From Haloterrigena salifodinae (GTDB lineage Archaea; Halobacteriota; Halobacteria; Halobacteriales; Natrialbaceae), in NCBI RefSeq assembly GCF_003977755.1, contig NZ_RQWN01000002.1:682001-746000 (forward strand): a DNA stretch of 64,000 bases, written 5' to 3'. Below the pieces are notes generated by a model that saw nothing but the letters and a program-made list of their open reading frames with translations, ran no database searches and had not been told where the DNA came from. This document shows, one piece after another, positions 5,396-62,431 of the stretch. How positions within the stretch are numbered: the stretch's first letter is position 1; each line of letters opens with the position of its first letter. The translations under genes were made by a program, and so were the position numbers.

Positions 5396-6786
5396 AACCG
5401 TCGGTAGACGAACCCCGCTTCGCAGGCCGCATCCTCGTCGAACGATCCCGTCACGTCGACCAGCGCTGGATCCTCGGCGAGTTCGGAGGCTACCGCCTCG
5501 AGGTCGAGTTCCTCGAACTCTGCGTGCGGCGTCGCGACCACGACGGCGTCGAATCCCTCGAACGAGAGACGCTCCTGGACGTCCAGACCGAACGCGTCGC
5601 GGACTGCATCCTCGTCTGCGAACGGATCGAAGCCGGCGATGTCGATATCGTACTCCGCGAGGCGATCGACGACGTCCGCGACCTTCGAGCTTCGGATGTC
5701 ACCGACGCCCGACTTGTACGACAGCCCCAGGACGAGCACGCGACTGTCCCGAAGCGTCTTGTGGCAGTTGTTCAGCGCCTTGATCGTCAGATCGGCGATA
5801 TGGTCGGGGACCGACTCGTTGACGGTCCGACTCGTGCGCACGAGTTCGGGTTCGAACCCTTCGCGAGCCGAGCGGTGGGCCAGGAAGTACGGATCGACCG
5901 GAATGCAGTGGCCGCCGACCAGTCCCGGCCGGTAGTCGTGGAAGTTCCACTTCGTCCCCGCGGCCTCGAGGACCGCCTGCGTGTCGACGTCCATCCGCTC
6001 TAAGGCCATCGAGAGCTCGTTGACGAAGGCGATGTTGAGGTCACGCTGGGTGTTCTCGACGACCTTGCTGGCCTCGGCGACCTCGATCGACGGCGCGCGG
6101 TGGACGCCGGCGTCGACGACCGATTCGTAGAGCGCCGCCACGTCCTCGAGGACCTTCTTGTCCTGAGCGCCGACGACCTTAACGACGTCCGCGAGGCCGT
6201 GTTCCTCGTCGCCGGGCGTCGCGCGCTCCGGCGAGTAGCCGACGAAGAATCCCTCGCCGGCGGTCAGATCGGAGGCGTCCTCGAGTGCGGGTATGAGAAC
6301 CTCGCGCGTCGTCCCCGGGTAGACGGTCGACTCGAGGATCACCGTCGTCCCGGGTTTCATCTTCGAGCCGACGGTGGTCGCGGCGCTCTCGACGTAGTTC
6401 AGGTCCGGCCGATCGTCCTCGTCGATGGGCGTCGGGACGGCGATGATGACGTAATCCGCATCGCCGATCTGGCCGGCGTCGGTCGTATAGGAGATGTCGT
6501 CGTTCTGAACCGCCTCGTCAGAGAGATCACCGGTCGTATCGACGCCGGCCTGTAGCTGCTCGACTGTCGACTCGTCGACGTCGTAGCCGATGACGCGGTA
6601 GTCCGACCGCGCGAAACCGACCGCGAGCGGAAGGCCGACGTAGCCGAGGCCGACGACGCAAATCGTCGCCGCTCGACTGGACTGTTCGTCGGCGTGTTCC
6701 TCGGTCGCGCCCTCGCTGTCCGAGAACGAGTACTCGCTGCGTGCTTCGTCCGCTCGGTTCGTCGTGTCGCTCAGTGTCGTAGTCAT
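5392..6786 (-). CDS. nucleotide sugar dehydrogenase (UDP-ManNAc/UDP-glucose dehydrogenase family)
   Basis: This 464-residue enzyme oxidises a UDP-hexose C6 alcohol to the uronate with two NAD+. It shows the Rossmann motif V-G-L-G-Y-V-G-L-P-L (residues 45-54), the catalytic-cysteine segment G-G-H-C-I-P-V-D-P-Y-F-L (C294) and the C-terminal NAD-domain motif G-L-S-Y-K-S-G-V-G-D-I-R-S-S. The H-C-I-P-V-D-P-Y form is closer to UDP-N-acetyl-mannosaminuronate dehydrogenases (WecC/WbpA group) than to classical UDP-glucose dehydrogenase, but the substrate cannot be fixed by sequence alone. About 40 acidic residues precede the Rossmann domain. It is the first gene of the four-gene operon and supplies the uronic acid donor for the glycosyltransferases that follow. 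Confidence 0.93.
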   Translation of the reverse strand: MTTTLSDTTNRADEARSEYSFSDSEGATEEHADEQSSRAATICVVGLGYVGLPLAVGFARSDYRVIGYDVDESTVEQLQAGVDTTGDLSDEAVQNDDISYTTDAGQIGDADYVIIAVPTPIDEDDRPDLNYVESAATTVGSKMKPGTTVILESTVYPGTTREVLIPALEDASDLTAGEGFFVGYSPERATPGDEEHGLADVVKVVGAQDKKVLEDVAALYESVVDAGVHRAPSIEVAEASKVVENTQRDLNIAFVNELSMALERMDVDTQAVLEAAGTKWNFHDYRPGLVGGHCIPVDPYFLAHRSAREGFEPELVRTSRTVNESVPDHIADLTIKALNNCHKTLRDSRVLVLGLSYKSGVGDIRSSKVADVVDRLAEYDIDIAGFDPFADEDAVRDAFGLDVQERLSFEGFDAVVVATPHAEFEELDLEAVASELAEDPALVDVTGSFDEDAACEAGFVYRRL

Positions 6787-7137
6787 GATTGAGACGGGTT
6801 CTGGACCGTTTGCACGACTGCGTGCAACGGTGGCTGTCAGGACCTGTGCAGCTCTTGGTCTTCGAGCGAACCAAGACGGCTGGGGCGGTTTACTATAGCC
6901 GAGATAAACGATTGCAACAGCTACATCCGACGAGCGACCCGTTTGCTGGGCCTCTTCCCGCCGACGAACCGCCGCTCACGGAAACTGCGACGACAGCGGC
7001 TTAGAAGGGTGTTAAATGGGCTTATACGGATCTATAATGAAGAGGGAAGAGCGCCCACGTACCAATACGGTCGGCGAGATTCCACTGACGTTCCAACGTC
7101 GATAGGCCACCGCCGACCGTCACAGAACCGAATACCC
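6787..7137. promoter_or_regulatory. divergent intergenic region between glycan operon and HTH gene
   Basis: This 351-base region has no gene and must hold the promoters of the minus-strand glycan operon and the plus-strand regulator. AT-rich patches with TATA-like words lie near 6890-6900 (CTATAG) and 7022-7037 (TTATACGG, TCTATAATG). Which patch serves which strand cannot be decided by eye. Confidence 0.45.
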
Positions 7138-7788
7138 ATGGTCTCACTGCCCCAGTTCGGAGTTTCCGTCCCGCTCGCGTCGATGCACGCGCCAGTTCGG
7201 CTCGGTGCGATCCGCACGCCGGATCACCGACTCGACACGCGTGCAATCGTCTCGGCTCTCGTCGGCGATAACGATGTGCTCTCGTCCGGGACGTCACTCT
7301 TGGGGCGGACGTCGACTCTGGAAGTGGCCCTGATCACGGTGCTGTTCTTGCTGGTCAGTAGCCTCGTCGCGATCCGCGTCGCCGAGGGGTTGTCCGACCG
7401 AGACATCAATCTGGCCGCGCTTCAGTCGCGATCAGCGATCGCGAACGGGTCGTCAGAACCGGATCAACGGCGAGGAACGGACCGCTCACCCACCGACGAT
7501 CACCAGTCGTTCGATCGGTATATCGCACCTGACACACCATCAGTACTACTGAGCGACGAGGGGGAGGTCGTTCGCCTGCTCGTCGCAAACGACGGCCGAC
7601 TCCGTCAGCACCGGATCGCCGACGAAACCGATTGGTCGAAGTCGAAAGTCAGTCGGCTCTGCTCTCAGCTGGACGCCGACGGGATCATCGAGAAAGTGTC
7701 GGTCGGCCGGGAGAACGTCATCACCCTGTCCGATCCGTCGACCGACGACTCGACCGAGACGGACGACGTCGAGAACCCCGTCGCATAG
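7138..7788 (+). CDS. membrane-anchored winged-helix regulator (DUF7343-like)
   Basis: This 216-residue protein has one strong transmembrane helix (about residues 62-81) and a C-terminal winged-helix domain (about 135-200). In the helix-turn-helix region, R-L-L-V-A-N-D-G-R-L-R-Q-H-R-I-A is followed by W-S-K-S-K-V-S-R-L-C-S-Q-L, the recognition helix, and then a wing (G-I-I-E-K-V-S-V-G-R-E-N-V-I). This architecture is common in haloarchaea for regulators with an envelope-facing sensor. The start ATG at 7138 (M-V-S-L-P-Q) is chosen because the open frame upstream is basic and uncharacteristic; M16 is an alternative. It is divergent from the glycan operon and upstream of glmS, so it may control either, but there is no direct sequence evidence. 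Confidence 0.75.
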   Translation: MVSLPQFGVSVPLASMHAPVRLGAIRTPDHRLDTRAIVSALVGDNDVLSSGTSLLGRTSTLEVALITVLFLLVSSLVAIRVAEGLSDRDINLAALQSRSAIANGSSEPDQRRGTDRSPTDDHQSFDRYIAPDTPSVLLSDEGEVVRLLVANDGRLRQHRIADETDWSKSKVSRLCSQLDADGIIEKVSVGRENVITLSDPSTDDSTETDDVENPVA

Positions 7789-8368
7789 TCGTTCCGACGA
7801 CGCTCGCCGTTCCCGAATCCGTACGGAAACCCGGGTGGACCCGACTGGCCTACTGACTATTGCTCTACGCGTTCTCCGACCTTGAGCGGCTGAGACGGCG
7901 ATTATCTCCCTGATAAGCGGTCCGACCGCGGTCGAGACGAGGGTCAGTGTTGCTCGCGATATCGGGTTGATCTGTTCGCATTCGTCGGATTGATCGCCTT
8001 GATCTGGTCGTAATTTCGAACCTGAACCGGATTTCCGACCCAAAGAATCGAACGAATGCGGGAATTTGGGCGACATTTTAACTCATTTCAGCGACGATTT
8101 CAACAGCTGAAACGGATTTCAGCCATATACAACCGATAAGCGGTATCTTATTCGTGGTATAGTAATGGGCCGTACGAACGTTGAAGCAAGTAGTGACCCG
8201 GTCCGCCGGCGGTACGGACGGACCTGGGTGTTAGGAAACAATGACACGCACTCCGACCCTCCAGACTGCTGGCTCGAATCGCGTCACGACGACCGCCCGA
8301 CCGACGGCCCGGTTCGCGCTTCGACGGCTGGCCGGCCGAAGGACGCGTCGTCAGACGCCCGCTCGAGC
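7789..8368. other. intergenic region and leader upstream of glmS
   Basis: No convincing gene lies in this stretch. Bases 8085-8165 are AT-rich, with TTTCAG repeated near an imperfect dyad (CAGCTGAAACGGATTTCAG) and TATA-like words (ATATACAA, GGTATCTTATTC), a plausible glmS promoter. That would leave a leader of more than 200 bases. The leader contains a 47-codon open frame (8241-8384) whose TGA overlaps the glmS ATG (TGATG); see findings. Confidence 0.5.
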
Positions 8369-53810: not shown

Positions 53811-55439
53811 TCACGCCGGCGCCGAATCGAAACCGGACTCGAGCGCGTCGATCGCCTCGTCATCGCCCGCCACCAGAAGGCTGTCGTCGGCCTCGAACCG
53901 GAACTCGAGCGGCACGTCCGTGACGATCTCGCCGTCGCGCTCGACGGCAACGAGGATGCAGTCGCTCTCCGGGATCGTCGTCTCGCCGAGGGTCCGGCCC
54001 GCGAACCGCCCGGACTCGAAGCGGACGACCGTCAGCTGACGGTCGTAGGAGAGGATCTCCTCGCGGAGGACGTCCAGCGCGAGCAGTCGACCGCTGATGT
54101 CGGGGAGGGTGAGCACGTAGTCGGCGCCTGCCCGCCGCAGCTTCCGCTCGCTGTCGGCGTCGTTGGCACGGACGACGACGTCGAGGTCGTCCGCGAGTTC
54201 GCGCGCGACGAGCGCCGACAGGATGGCCTCGTCGTCGCTGCCGACCGCGACGACGAATGCCGTCGCCGTCTGGAGGTCGGCTCGCTCGAGGACATCCTCG
54301 TCGGTCGCGTCGCCGACGACGTCGACACCCGGCAGTTCCTCACGGTCGATAACGGTACAGGCGACGCCGGCCGCACGGAGGCGCTCGCTGATCGTCGAGC
54401 CGACCTCGCCGTGACCTGCGACGACCACCCTCGGGTGGGACGTCCGGGCGGGTGCAGTGTGGCTCTCGAGTTCCTTCAGCGTCGACTCGTCACCGGCGAC
54501 GAGCAATACGGTGTGTTCGTCGATCTCGAGGTCCGGTGACGGCTCGCTGACGAACGCGCCTCCCTTCCAAAGGCCGACGAGGATCACGTCCGTCGCCTCG
54601 AGAACACCGAGCTCGGCGAGGGTCTTTCCGCAGACGGTGCTCTCCTCGAAGACCGAGAGTTCGACGAGAGAGACGCCGTCGCCGAGGCTCGTCACGTCGC
54701 TGACGCGCGGATCGATCTCGGCCCGGACCCGTTCGGCGATCCGACGACCGAGCAGGTGTCGCGGCGTGACGACGGTGTCGGCGCCCGCGTAGCGGAGCGG
54801 GCGCTCGAGCGACCGGTCGCTACAGAGGGCGACGACGCGAACGTCCGCGGTCCGCTCTCTGACGGCGAGGACGGCGCTTGCGGCCGCCTCGTCGGCGGTG
54901 TCGATCACGACCGCGGCCGCGTCGTCGACGTTGGCTCGCTCTAAGTCCTCGACCGCAGTGGGATCGCCCCGAATCACGGACGTTCCCGCCTCGTCGAGGG
55001 CCAGCGCCTCCGACTCGTCCTCGACGACCACGAGGTGATCGACGCCCCGGCTCTCGAACTCGTCGACGAGGCGCTCGCTGCGCGAGGAGTAGCCACAGAC
55101 GAGGACGTGGTCCGCCAGTTCCGTGGTGCGCGGCGCCGTCGGGGAGAACGACTCCTCGAGGATCGGCTGGAAGACGTAGGGGACGACGATGAAGAGGACG
55201 AGGAACGTCCCGAGGTCCATCGCCATCACGAAGAGGTTCCCCAGCGGGGACCCCCACGGCGAGTCGGAGCCGTAGCCGGTCCCCGTGAACGTCTCGATGA
55301 CGACCTGCGTCGAGTGGAAGTAGCTCTGCGAGCGGCCCTCGACGGCGACCATGACGTAGTGGTACAACAGCGACGTCAGGACGATGAGGGCCAGTACGCC
55401 GCCAATCGTCTTCGCGGCGCGCCGTTGCCAGCGTTCCAT
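53811..55439 (-). CDS. potassium channel with two RCK/TrkA domains (filter TGTGYG)
   Basis: This 542-residue protein has a two-helix pore: helix 1 at 12-32, selectivity filter T52-G-T-G-Y-G57, helix 2 at 68-90. Two RCK modules follow, with Rossmann starts H-V-L-V-C-G-Y-S (about 111) and R-V-V-V-A-G-H-G-E-V-G (about 334), each followed by a TrkA-C-like domain. In MthK-type channels RCK domains bind nucleotide or Ca2+ to gate K+. The filter has G-T-G-Y-G rather than the common T-V-G-Y-G. A paralogue at 60806 has the same register with V-G-F-G. It is monocistronic on the minus strand. Confidence 0.9.
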   Translation of the reverse strand: MERWQRRAAKTIGGVLALIVLTSLLYHYVMVAVEGRSQSYFHSTQVVIETFTGTGYGSDSPWGSPLGNLFVMAMDLGTFLVLFIVVPYVFQPILEESFSPTAPRTTELADHVLVCGYSSRSERLVDEFESRGVDHLVVVEDESEALALDEAGTSVIRGDPTAVEDLERANVDDAAAVVIDTADEAAASAVLAVRERTADVRVVALCSDRSLERPLRYAGADTVVTPRHLLGRRIAERVRAEIDPRVSDVTSLGDGVSLVELSVFEESTVCGKTLAELGVLEATDVILVGLWKGGAFVSEPSPDLEIDEHTVLLVAGDESTLKELESHTAPARTSHPRVVVAGHGEVGSTISERLRAAGVACTVIDREELPGVDVVGDATDEDVLERADLQTATAFVVAVGSDDEAILSALVARELADDLDVVVRANDADSERKLRRAGADYVLTLPDISGRLLALDVLREEILSYDRQLTVVRFESGRFAGRTLGETTIPESDCILVAVERDGEIVTDVPLEFRFEADDSLLVAGDDEAIDALESGFDSAPA

Positions 55440-58631: not shown

Positions 58632-59294
58632 TCAGAACGGTCCGCCGTGGACGAGCCCTTCCATGACCGTTCGTTCGGCCCGCCGGAGCAACTCCCCCGC
58701 CGTCCCGCTCGAGCAGTCCAGTCGATCCGCAACGTCCTCGAGGGACCCGTCCCGGGTCGTGTGGTAGTAGCCGCAGTCGACGGCCGCGGAAACGGCTTCG
58801 AACTGGCGCTGGGTCAAATCAGCCCGCGTGTCGATTCGCCCGGCACGGTACGTCCCGACCGAACGGACGTCGACGCGCGCCGTATCGGCCACGTCGTCGA
58901 CCGCCGTCTGGATCGCTTCGTCGGGACCGACCGCCGTCAGTCGTATCGTCCCGTCGTCGCGGAACGCTACCGGCGGGATGATGATCAGCCCCGGTTGTTC
59001 GACCGCGTCCACGAACGTTCGGTCGGCCCCCGTCAGCGACTCCCGCACGTACAGGTAGAAGGAATCGTCGCGACACGGTGCGAGCTCGTAGTCGAGCACC
59101 GTGGGGGCGTCCTCGAGGGCGGGCTCGTAGGGGACTCGCGGACCGTCGATGTAGAACAGCATCGCGTACTCGTCGCCGTACTGGTGGCCGTAGAGCAATC
59201 TCGATGCAGTATACCCCTCGTGTTCAACGATGAACTGGTGCATCGGATGCTGCTCGGCCGTCGGTCGCTGCAGGGTCACCTCGAGATAGCGCAT
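58632..59294 (-). CDS. HTH_10 (Bat-type) transcriptional regulator 2
   Basis: This 220-residue paralogue of 45599-46249 also starts M-R-Y-L, here M-R-Y-L-E-V-T-L. Its C-terminal HTH has L-T-Q-R-Q-F-E-A-V-S-A-A-V-D-C-G-Y-Y, then T-T-R-D-G-S-L-E-D-V-A-D-R-L-D-C-S-S-G-T-A-G-E. The N-terminal domain carries a short, variable sensor-like fold. It is divergent (153 bases) from the RnfC/PduS-like gene. Each HTH_10 protein of this window faces a membrane electron-transfer component, so local regulation is plausible. Confidence 0.88.
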   Translation of the reverse strand: MRYLEVTLQRPTAEQHPMHQFIVEHEGYTASRLLYGHQYGDEYAMLFYIDGPRVPYEPALEDAPTVLDYELAPCRDDSFYLYVRESLTGADRTFVDAVEQPGLIIIPPVAFRDDGTIRLTAVGPDEAIQTAVDDVADTARVDVRSVGTYRAGRIDTRADLTQRQFEAVSAAVDCGYYHTTRDGSLEDVADRLDCSSGTAGELLRRAERTVMEGLVHGGPF

Positions 59295-59447
59295 TTCGCT
59301 GCTCGAGATACGTCCGCTGGTGCCTACAAAGCTACCGTCTCGACGGACCGCCGGACGGCGGATCGAACGCCGCCACGGGGTGTTATAAACACCCCTCATA
59401 GGTGCGGATCAAGTCGAACGATCGTTCCGGACAATGCTCCGCGTGTC

Positions 59448-60572
59448 ATGACGACTCCACGTATGCGGCCGACTCGTGACGCGGAGTGGCCGGACGTTCG
59501 AACCGAGGGGAGCGACCTGATCCGGTCGGCCGGCGTCGCGGGCGCGGGCGGCGCCGGCTTTCCGTCCTACGCGAAGTGGACGAACCTCGACGCGGTCGAT
59601 TCCCTCCTGGTGAACCACCAGGAGAGCGAACCGAACTACTGCATCGACAAGTGGCTCGGAAAGACCCGCGCGGAGACGTTCGCCACGCTGTTCGACGCGC
59701 TGCTCGACCAGGCGTTCGATCTGATCGTCGTCAGCGCGAAGTGGAAGGATCGCGACGAGTACGTTCGGGCCCTCGAGGCCGAGACTGCCGACACGGTGAT
59801 CCGGCCGGATGAACTCCCCCTCGACAGGGACGCGGAATCGGGCGTCGTGTTCGCCTACACGGAGAACGAGTACCAGTACGGGATGGAGAGCGTCCTGCTC
59901 AAGACCGTCGACGGGACGGTTATCGGAACCGATCTGCCGACCGATCACGGCTGGCTCGTCCAGAACACCGAAACCCTGTCCAATATCTCTCGGGCGTTCA
60001 CCGACGGTGAGCCAGTGACCCACAAGTACGTCCACGTCAGCGGCGACGTGCCGCGGGATCGATTCCTCGAGGTTCCGATCGGCACGCCCGCGAGCGAACT
60101 CCTGTGCGCGGCCGACTGTCCGCCCGACGCGCTCCCCGCAGACGCGGTGATCGCCGACGGCGGGCCGGGCTGGTGTTTCCCGGTTGATTCGGCACTCGAC
60201 GAGTACGGCGTCCGCAAGCACACGAACTGCCTGCTCGTCCTCGACGAGGAAACCGTCGCGGAAAACACGTACGGCGAGGGCCGAATCGACGTGCTCGAGG
60301 CGGACGAGTGGAGCGACCGGGAGGCTGAAACCGAGCCGACCGCGACGATCGAGCCGTCCTACGTCCGGGTTCCGCTCGCGACGAACCCGGAGCCGGACGT
60401 CGTGAACCCCGCCGAACCGGTCGTCGAGGTCGGCGATCGCGTCGACGTCGGCGACCGGATCGCGAGCCCCAGTTCCGACGGGATCAGTATCCCCCAACAC
60501 GCGTCTATCGCCGGCGAGGTGACGGTGGTGTCCGAGTCTAGTATCGAGATCGAACCCCACTCGAGCGCGTAG
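59448..60572 (+). CDS. RnfC/PduS-like SLBB-domain protein lacking the 4Fe-4S domain
   Basis: This 374-residue protein starts M-T-T-P-R-M and contains the NuoF/RnfC glycine-rich motif G-V-A-G-A-G-G-A-G-F-P-S-Y (29-41) and N-H-Q-E-S-E-P-N-Y (56-64), as in RnfC and PduS. An SLBB-like region (about 190-285) follows, and a C-terminal barrel-sandwich segment ends V-G-D-R-V-D-V-G-D-R-I-A and Q-H-A-S-I-A-G-E. Its cysteines are scattered (C65, C224, C228, C245, C263) with no C-x-x-C-x-x-C cluster, so the ferredoxin domain of RnfC/PduS is absent. FMN or NADH binding remains possible. No other Rnf gene is near. Confidence 0.85.
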   Translation: MTTPRMRPTRDAEWPDVRTEGSDLIRSAGVAGAGGAGFPSYAKWTNLDAVDSLLVNHQESEPNYCIDKWLGKTRAETFATLFDALLDQAFDLIVVSAKWKDRDEYVRALEAETADTVIRPDELPLDRDAESGVVFAYTENEYQYGMESVLLKTVDGTVIGTDLPTDHGWLVQNTETLSNISRAFTDGEPVTHKYVHVSGDVPRDRFLEVPIGTPASELLCAADCPPDALPADAVIADGGPGWCFPVDSALDEYGVRKHTNCLLVLDEETVAENTYGEGRIDVLEADEWSDREAETEPTATIEPSYVRVPLATNPEPDVVNPAEPVVEVGDRVDVGDRIASPSSDGISIPQHASIAGEVTVVSESSIEIEPHSSA

Positions 60573-60805: not shown

Positions 60806-62431
60806 ATGAAGGACTGGTGGCGTCGAATCGGCCTCTCGCTGGGCGCCGTTTTCGCTCTCGTTCTCGTTTACGCGAAACTCTACCAGTTCGGAATGGCCGC
60901 CTTCGAGGGAGACCAGAAAACGTACGTCGGCTCTGTGCAGACCGTGGTCGAAACGCTAACCACGGTGGGCTTCGGCGGCGACGCGCCGTGGGATAGCACC
61001 GTGATGAACCTCTTCGTGATCGGCATGATCCTCACGGGCGTTTCCCTCGTCTTCCTCGCCCTGCCGCTGCTCGTCGTCCCGCTCTTTCAGGAGGCCCTCG
61101 AGGACCGTCCGCCGGAGTCGACCGGCCTCACCGACCACGTCGTCATCTGCGGCTATTCGCCGCGATCGGACGTGCTCGCAGACGAACTCGAGGCGGCAAA
61201 CATCCCGTACGTCTTCGTCGACGACGACCCCGAACTCGTCGTCGACCTCACGAACGACGGGACCGAGGCAATCTACGGCGAACTCGACCAGGAGGAGACG
61301 CTCCGCGCGGCCAACGCCGGCGAGGCGCGGTCGCTCGTCACCGACGTCGACGACGAGACCAACGCGGTCGTGATCCTCACCGCCCGGGAGTTCTCGAGCG
61401 ACCTCACGATCGTCAGCGTGGTCGAGGACGAGGACGTCGCGAGCTACCACCGCTACGCCGGCGCCGACGAGACCGTCCGCCCGCGGCGGGTGCTCGGCCA
61501 GAGCCTCGCGACGAAGGCGACGACGACGCTGTCTGCCGAACTTCGAGACACGATCGAACTCAGCGAGGACCTCTCGGTAACTGAACTGCTCGTCCAGGAC
61601 GACAGCGACCTTGTCGGCCGGACGGTTGCGGAGTCGGGGATCCGGGACCGGATGGGGATCACCGTCATCGGCGCGTGGTTCAACGGCGAGTTCGTTCCCG
61701 TTCCGGGTCCCGACCACCGGATCGACGGCAACACGATCCTGCTTGTCGCGGGCCGGCGAGACGACCTCACGGAACTGAAAGCGCGGACGGTCTCGACGCT
61801 CGAGCACCGGCCCGAAAACGTGATCGTCGGCGGTTACGGCGTCGTCGGCCGGACCGCGGTGGAGACGCTGGCGGGCAACGGCGTCTCGACCACCGTCGTC
61901 GACCTCGCGGACCAACCCGGCGTGGATATCACCGGCAGCATCACCGACGAGGACGTCCTCGAGACCGCCGGCGCGGACGAGGCCCGCTCGGTCCTGCTGA
62001 CCGTCAACGACGACGCGACGACGATCTACGCGACGCTGGTTCTCAAACAGGTCACTCCGGATATCGAGATCATTGCGCGGGCCAACGAGACGGAGAACAT
62101 CCCGAAACTCTACCGCGCCGGCGCGGAGTACGTCCTCTCGCTGTCGACGGTGACCGGTCGGATGCTCGCCTCCGTGCTGATCGAGGACGAGGAGATCCTC
62201 ACGCCCGAGACGCAGTTCGAACTCGTCCGGACGACCACGCCCCAGATCGCCGGGAAGAGCCTCGGGGAGGTCGACCTGCGGGCGCGGACCGGCTGTACCG
62301 TCGTCGCCGTCGAGCGCGACGGCGAACTGTTGACCGACCTCGGCCCGGAGTTCGTCGTCAACACGGACGACGTGTTGATCGTCGCCGGCGACGACGAGGC
62401 GATCAACCGGTTCGTCGCACTGGCCTGCTGA
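60806..62431 (+). CDS. potassium channel with two RCK/TrkA domains (filter TTVGFG)
   Basis: This 541-residue paralogue of 53811-55439 has two pore helices (about 8-30 and 68-92) with filter T52-T-V-G-F-G57. Two RCK modules follow with Rossmann starts H-V-V-I-C-G-Y-S-P-R-S (about 112) and N-V-I-V-G-G-Y-G-V-V-G (about 340). The V-G-F-G filter departs from the K+ consensus T-V-G-Y-G; G-F-G filters also occur in K+ channels, so K+ selectivity is still likely. Dual RCK modules suggest gating by nucleotides or cyclic dinucleotides. A TATA-like TTACATA is about 30 bases upstream of the ATG. Confidence 0.9.
   Translation: MKDWWRRIGLSLGAVFALVLVYAKLYQFGMAAFEGDQKTYVGSVQTVVETLTTVGFGGDAPWDSTVMNLFVIGMILTGVSLVFLALPLLVVPLFQEALEDRPPESTGLTDHVVICGYSPRSDVLADELEAANIPYVFVDDDPELVVDLTNDGTEAIYGELDQEETLRAANAGEARSLVTDVDDETNAVVILTAREFSSDLTIVSVVEDEDVASYHRYAGADETVRPRRVLGQSLATKATTTLSAELRDTIELSEDLSVTELLVQDDSDLVGRTVAESGIRDRMGITVIGAWFNGEFVPVPGPDHRIDGNTILLVAGRRDDLTELKARTVSTLEHRPENVIVGGYGVVGRTAVETLAGNGVSTTVVDLADQPGVDITGSITDEDVLETAGADEARSVLLTVNDDATTIYATLVLKQVTPDIEIIARANETENIPKLYRAGAEYVLSLSTVTGRMLASVLIEDEEILTPETQFELVRTTTPQIAGKSLGEVDLRARTGCTVVAVERDGELLTDLGPEFVVNTDDVLIVAGDDEAINRFVALAC

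Follow-up and report, generated by a model that had tools for sequence, protein, structure and literature searches.

A haloarchaeal RnfC/PduS-like flavoprotein with predicted FMN and NADH sites and no iron-sulfur module

In a 64,000-nucleotide stretch of the 4.96 Mb genome of the haloarchaeon Haloterrigena salifodinae (hereinafter the window), we analyzed a gene whose product combines the flavin and NADH motifs of RnfC with the domain order of PduS and carries no recognizable 4Fe-4S cluster motif. As far as sequence and a structural model can tell, this flavoprotein functions in the manner of an RnfC/PduS-type NADH-flavin head. On balance, we favor the view that it is a soluble NADH-oxidizing FMN protein, built like PduS without the ferredoxin module, in which electrons pass directly from the flavin to an acceptor. 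RnfC, PduS and NuoF couple the flavin to Fe-S clusters, and NqrA has lost both; a family with a flavin/NADH site but no clusters would, if this reading is true, show the action of the flavin module alone and correct the 'NADH dehydrogenase subunit' label given to such genes. Beyond the initial annotation of the gene as an RnfC/PduS-like protein without an Fe-S domain, the present analysis shows that the domains follow the PduS order, that the protein belongs to a haloarchaeal family with a paralogue in this genome, that many members of this family carry a CxxC tail, and that the gene is linked to a regulator and an operator-like repeat.

Domain architecture and predicted structure

The open reading frame starts with the ATG at 59448, its stop codon ends at 60572, and the predicted protein consists of 374 residues; the nearest named relative that we found comes from Haloterrigena salina (93% identity). 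Comparison of the query with six orthologues indicates purifying selection (dN/dS 0.24-0.38). The features of the gene are listed below, with counts that refer to the 63 distinct relatives in the family set.

59448..60572, + strand: flavoprotein gene, RnfC/PduS-like, without Fe-S module (374 aa; Pfam, model and family alignment)
59541..59576, + strand: FMN Gly-rich loop, residues 32-43 (GAGGAGFPSYAK); GG[AGS]G[FS]PxxxK in 63/63; F38 and K43 match the NADH-holding Phe and Lys of complex I
59613..59633, + strand: residues 56-62 (NHQESEP), counterpart of the complex I Glu-Ser-Glu triad; N[HN]QESEP in 63/63
59871..59891, + strand: residues 142-148 (YQYGMES); YxxGxE in 59/63; E147 is Glu in 63/63
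60012..60167, + strand: SLBB-like part, about residues 189-240, limits approximate (alignment to the PduS SLBB and RnfC; weak Pfam SLBB in two relatives)
60156..60179, + strand: family signature DGGPGWCF, residues 237-244; W242 in 63/63, C243 in 56/63
60273..60347, + strand: short linker, about residues 276-300, at the place of the PduS dicluster ferredoxin module (alignment to PduS)
60354..60557, + strand: C-terminal barrel-sandwich domain, about residues 303-370 (Pfam RnfC_N at 318-365; alignment)

The Pfam search detected, both above cut-off, Complex1_51K (the Nuo51 FMN-binding domain; residues 25-181, E 8.4e-17) and the barrel-sandwich domain RnfC_N (residues 318-365, E 6.9e-8). For SLBB, no match to the query was listed at E up to 1; among three relatives scanned, the match was weak in two (E 0.14 and 0.015) and none was listed for L052. 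The profile alignment to RnfC and the superposition over model residues 3-271 both traverse this part of the query, in agreement with the initial annotation, which had described an SLBB-like part as retained. The barrel-sandwich domain that it named is likewise present, but its position had to be corrected: it is C-terminal as in PduS, whereas in RnfC it comes first.

The AlphaFold2 model, computed from a 28-row family alignment, has a mean pLDDT of 90.8 and a pTM of 0.89, with residues 1-11 below a pLDDT of 50. In the PDB, three RnfC chains give the top sequence matches and the next places go to NADH-binding flavin subunits from complex I or from hydrogenases; a Foldseek search with the model also ranks RnfC chains first (8rbm_C, E 5.5e-16). 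With VIA-align, the rows of which covered model residues 5-283, the comparison with Azotobacter vinelandii RnfC (8ahx_C) yields a Z-score of 23.8 with an rmsd of 3.0 over 247 residues, spanning model residues 3-271, and complex I chains score about 19-20. The structural comparison with RnfC that the annotation had proposed thus returns an RnfC fold. PduS has no place in the VIA-align list, and nothing is inferred from its absence.

The flavin and NADH site

The Gly-rich site of the NuoF/RnfC type, on which the annotation had drawn, is kept throughout the family, and the four exceptions to YxxGxE consist of Phe for Tyr in three members and Ser for Gly in one. E59-S60-E61 aligns with Glu95-Ser96-Glu97 of complex I and E147 with the NADH-contacting Glu185. 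Complex I Asp94 presumably corresponds to Gln58 of the flavoprotein, and the NADH-stacking Phe205 is without an aromatic counterpart, its place being occupied by Leu163 in the query and by Leu or Val in the family. The Phe, the Lys, Glu185 and Glu95-Ser96-Glu97 are described as holding NADH in complex I (passages of PMC11677225), and RnfC is described as binding FMN non-covalently, with NADH stacked on the FMN (passages of PMC9588780 and PMC11889175). A model without an FMN/NADH pocket, which would have spoken against the annotation, was not obtained: the predicted structure has the RnfC fold, and the positions equivalent to the FMN/NADH-holding residues of complex I are conserved. Together, the motifs and the fold argue for the earlier suggestion that the protein may bind flavin and NADH, and we predict FMN and NADH as its ligands.

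Absence of iron-sulfur clusters

With the C-terminal tails left out, CxxCxxC was found in 0/63 family members, as was the NuoF N3 cluster motif CGxCxxC. The CxxCxxC controls were positive, namely PduS and two of four NuoF-like proteins encoded in the query's genome, and the motif is present in 13/13 RnfC- or NuoF-type proteins from other archaea of the phylum. The statement that no 4Fe-4S cysteine cluster is seen is confirmed, and the corollary that the protein cannot relay electrons via ferredoxin clusters as RnfC does is supported. Of the five cysteines of the query, four (220, 224, 243 and 261) lie within the SLBB-like part or C-terminal to it. Position 243 is occupied by Cys in 56 of the 63 members and by Ser in the other seven, C261 is Cys in 44/63, and the remaining three, including 220 and 224, are not conserved; on these grounds, a hidden cluster on 220/224/243/261 was rejected.

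A conserved Fe-S partner gene nearby, which would have told against the annotation, was not found either. No 4Fe-4S, CxxCxxC or 2Fe-2S pattern occurs in the 11 genes called in the window around the flavoprotein gene (about 10 kb upstream and 3.4 kb downstream) or among the called genes of six orthologous 17-kb loci, and the called neighbors include no RnfB-like Fe-S gene; genes were called with a home-made heuristic. The neighbor motif search gave hits only to a less strict rubredoxin-like pattern, at a distance of about 6 kb, in two loci (L023 and L024).

Comparison with RnfC, PduS, NuoF and NqrA

The flavoprotein departs in defining features from RnfC, PduS, NuoF and NqrA. PduS of Ilyobacter polytropus (P0002) shares with it the Gly-rich loop and the order FMN domain - SLBB - barrel-sandwich, the two sequences being 30% identical over residues 38-268 and 31% identical in the C-terminal domain, but contains a 4Fe-4S dicluster module (Fer4_17) between the SLBB and barrel-sandwich domains that the query lacks. 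Because the query aligns to PduS on both sides of this module, its architecture is that of PduS without the ferredoxin module; the family may descend from PduS or may have reached the same domain order by another route. The C-terminal location of the barrel-sandwich domain in PduS and its N-terminal location in RnfC were described earlier, together with the cobalamin reductase function of PduS and possible corrin binding by the SLBB domain (passages of PMC1796856). The PduS gene of I. polytropus adjoins microcompartment genes, whereas the query locus is not a microcompartment or diol dehydratase operon.

RnfC is the best match by sequence and fold, and the FMN/NADH motifs are common to both proteins; unlike the query, RnfC has an N-terminal barrel-sandwich domain and two C-terminal 4Fe-4S clusters and is a subunit of a membrane complex. 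This ordinary arrangement, with the barrel-sandwich domain first and two cluster motifs last, is found in 11 of 13 archaeal RnfC/NuoF-type proteins, and against the NCBIfam rnfC model the query scores 102.8 bits, under half of the cut-off of 245.95. NuoF/Nqo1 and related diaphorase subunits resemble the query in the FMN/NADH domain and SLBB part but have the N3 cluster and no barrel-sandwich domain, the reverse of the query, which scores 27.3 bits against the NuoF model (cut-off 558.65). NqrA, described as the RnfC equivalent of Nqr that has lost its redox cofactors (passages of PMC11889175 and PMC9588780), is without Fe-S clusters like the query; it lost FMN as well, however, whereas the query family keeps the flavin motifs in 63/63 members, and only one of 28 family members matches the NqrA model (E 0.00045). 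The model of PrdC, a proline-reductase-associated protein, is matched by 28/28 members scanned, with 82.7 bits for the query against a cut-off of 490. Haloarchaeal proteins annotated as 'NADH dehydrogenase' or its subunit, in seven plasmid records, belong to the same family (50-58% identity) and are uncharacterized as far as we found; some family members end in a CxxC...CxxC tail.

Family distribution, second copy and C-terminal tail

In an even sample of 292 haloarchaeal genomes, a family match at E up to 1e-10 was found in 42, of which G033, G153 and G300 contain only fragments, and a match is present in 15 of 41 related genomes, that in G033 being a fragment. Seven haloarchaeal plasmid records contain a match, one annotated as 'NADH dehydrogenase' and three as 'NADH dehydrogenase subunit', and a Thermoplasmata bin contains a single member (L052). 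In a tree of the 63 members, built by a quick method with SH-aLRT as its support measure, the query falls within a 13-row clade with support 99. Fragmentary or frame-broken copies (G153, G300, G033 and L054) suggest recurrent loss of the gene, and together with the patchy spread they indicate that the flavoprotein is dispensable in many species. A search of titles and abstracts, with most subscription journals outside its reach, yielded no publication on the family.

The C-terminal tail (YWxxCxxCG...VCxxC) is present in 26 of the 63 members and absent from the query; a Tyr, a Trp, a Gly and the four Cys of the tail do not vary across 17 aligned sequences, and two tailed members scanned (L038 is a tailed member) gave no Pfam match to it. 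The tree requires at least seven changes between presence and absence of the tail, a count that cannot separate gain from loss; the tail sequence shared across separate clades suggests repeated loss. Modeled alone (53 residues, pLDDT 80.7, pTM 0.50), it shows no significant structure match (best E 0.24). Identification as rubredoxin was rejected, no rubredoxin being among the 50 best matches listed; the top matches among those listed are mostly zinc-binding domains, and we tentatively describe the tail as zinc-knob-like.

The genome of the query encodes a second copy (L016, 59% identity). This paralogue type (L016 and relatives, e.g., L038:7905-9134) is located downstream of 3-dehydroquinate synthase II in 12/12 loci, the synthase having been identified by Pfam in one locus (E 9.4e-135) and by clustering in the others. 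The two genes are 195-255 bp apart in 11 loci, against 2,069 bp in L047; given these distances, a role in aromatic amino acid metabolism was set aside and no function was drawn. In L047, the interval (5835-7905) holds about 2 kb of extra DNA, possibly a mobile element. A mini-ORF with its stop codon overlapping the start codon (ATGA) precedes the paralogue type in 13 of 20 rows, duplicates included. A five-codon mini-ORF that overlaps the query start in this manner was found in none of the other 11 clade rows listed and was dropped.

Gene neighborhood and a putative dedicated regulator

The neighbors in the window include two aldo/keto reductases, an HTH_10 regulator, a TrkA-type protein and a luciferase-like protein, and no neighbor is common to all clades compared. 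The region is flanked, at a spacing of a few kb, by genes for two TrkA_N/TrkA_C proteins (53811-55439, - strand, 542 aa, and 60806-62431, + strand, 541 aa). The regulator and the intervening promoter features are the following.

58632..59294, - strand: divergent HTH_10 transcription regulator (HVO_0513_N + HTH_10; 220 aa; Pfam); divergent neighbor in 11/13 clade members
59384..59389, + strand: TATA-box-like TATAAA, beginning at -64 from the start codon (sequence)
59394..59407, + strand: operator-like inverted repeat CCTCA-TAGG-TGCGG, at -54; 9-10 of 10 positions in 11/13 clade members

The regulators of the 11 clade members are 67-100% identical, and the same 11 members carry the repeat CC[GT]CA-N4-TGCGG at -54 or -55 of the start codon, 10 bp downstream of the first base of the TATA hexamer. 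In the two clade members that have no such regulator within about 1.4 kb, the repeat scores 8 of 10; among 2,600 single-base shuffles, 9 of 10 was reached in 20. Since the clade sequences share common descent, conservation of the repeat cannot by itself count as independent proof. In the nine genomes searched, TAAA-N4-repeat has a single occurrence per genome, always at the flavoprotein gene, and a reversed control pattern has none; because the pattern was built from these very sites, finding them is expected, and the result lies in the absence of further ones.

Regulator copies at 75-100% identity are found in exactly six of 41 genomes, those with the query-type gene, and the next best match in these 41 genomes is at 44%. 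As a co-occurrence marker, the regulator was nonetheless rejected: distant HTH_10 relatives, detected in 31/41 genomes at E up to 1e-20, are widespread, and the linkage therefore rests on adjacency. Judging by these sequence patterns, the divergent regulator probably switches transcription of this copy via the promoter repeat, which it is predicted to bind; the position of the site just after the TATA box would suit a repressor.

Possible mechanism and alternative explanations

In the mechanism that we favor, hydride transfer from NADH would reduce the bound FMN, as it does in RnfC and NuoF, and FMNH2 would pass its electrons straight on to a diffusible acceptor with no Fe-S wire. The flavin, lacking a neighboring cluster, would be the sole redox center and would have to meet the acceptor directly; the acceptor would either dock on the face freed by the missing module or be held by the SLBB-like and barrel-sandwich domains. 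Candidate acceptors include a soluble ferredoxin, a corrinoid, a quinone, oxygen and a thiol/disulfide, the latter with a possible route through C243. In favor of this reading we count the first rank of RnfC in both sequence and fold, the confident model, the invariant motifs, the lack of CxxCxxC where the controls have it, the alignment to PduS on either side of the Fe-S module, the purifying selection and the linked regulator with its repeat; against it, the lack of an aromatic counterpart of Phe205, the presumed counterpart Gln58 of Asp94, the lack of a linked acceptor gene and the patchy spread with its broken copies.

A further point against NADH-FMN chemistry is NqrA, a relative that gave up every cofactor yet persists as a structural subunit (passages of PMC11889175 and PMC9588780). 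By this analogy, the flavoprotein might be a non-redox scaffold or ligand-binding sensor that kept the fold and lost the chemistry; we consider this quite unlikely, since a scaffold would not need the flavin and NADH motifs that are invariant in all 63 members of a diverse family. The PduS-like domain order, the corrin-binding potential of SLBB in a known cobalamin reductase (PMC1796856, in part) and the location of one relative (L057) near a methylmalonyl-CoA mutase gene would instead fit a minimal corrinoid reductase, in which cobalamin is bound by the SLBB-like and barrel-sandwich domains and is reduced by FMNH2 with no cluster in between. The query, however, lacks the Fe-S module of PduS, and apart from the L057 mutase no cobalamin genes were recognized by eye near the listed loci, so that this possibility appears rather unlikely. 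Alternatively, the protein could stand in as the NADH-input head of an Fe-S complex whose genes lie elsewhere, such as the haloarchaeal Nuo without NuoEFG, with the partner supplying the clusters. Passages of PMC8305020 describe the absence of NuoEFG and treat NADH reoxidation in haloarchaea as an open question; the main text of that paper mentions neither RnfC nor SLBB. Four of the seven plasmid relatives are annotated as 'NADH dehydrogenase' or a subunit thereof, but this annotation is automatic, no Fe-S gene is found among the called neighbors of the query and six orthologues, and Nuo is described as typical of haloarchaea, whereas the family occurs in only 42/292 genomes. We therefore regard such a role as very unlikely, and the patchy distribution also argues against the flavoprotein being a general answer to NADH reoxidation in haloarchaea.

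The direct flavin-to-acceptor reading can be extended, speculatively and with considerable doubt on our part, to a distinct archaeal class of cluster-free NADH-FMN reductases that arose by loss of a PduS-type ferredoxin module. Members of such a class would use an exchangeable acceptor, perhaps via the mostly conserved Cys243 or, in tailed members, via the metal-binding knob of the tail, and the query copy would form a one-target regulon with its own HTH_10 switch.

NuoF-like genes elsewhere in the genome

The genome of the query (G000) encodes four NuoF-like proteins at other loci (L090, L091, L092 and L093) that are a mirror image of the flavoprotein. All four keep the NuoF Fe-S region (Pfam NADH_4Fe-4S), and in all four the FMN Gly-rich motif is degenerate, with GRGRGD or GRGWGD replacing GRGGAGFP; L091 and L092 have lost cluster cysteines as well. 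A ferredoxin-domain gene adjoins each of these four genes.
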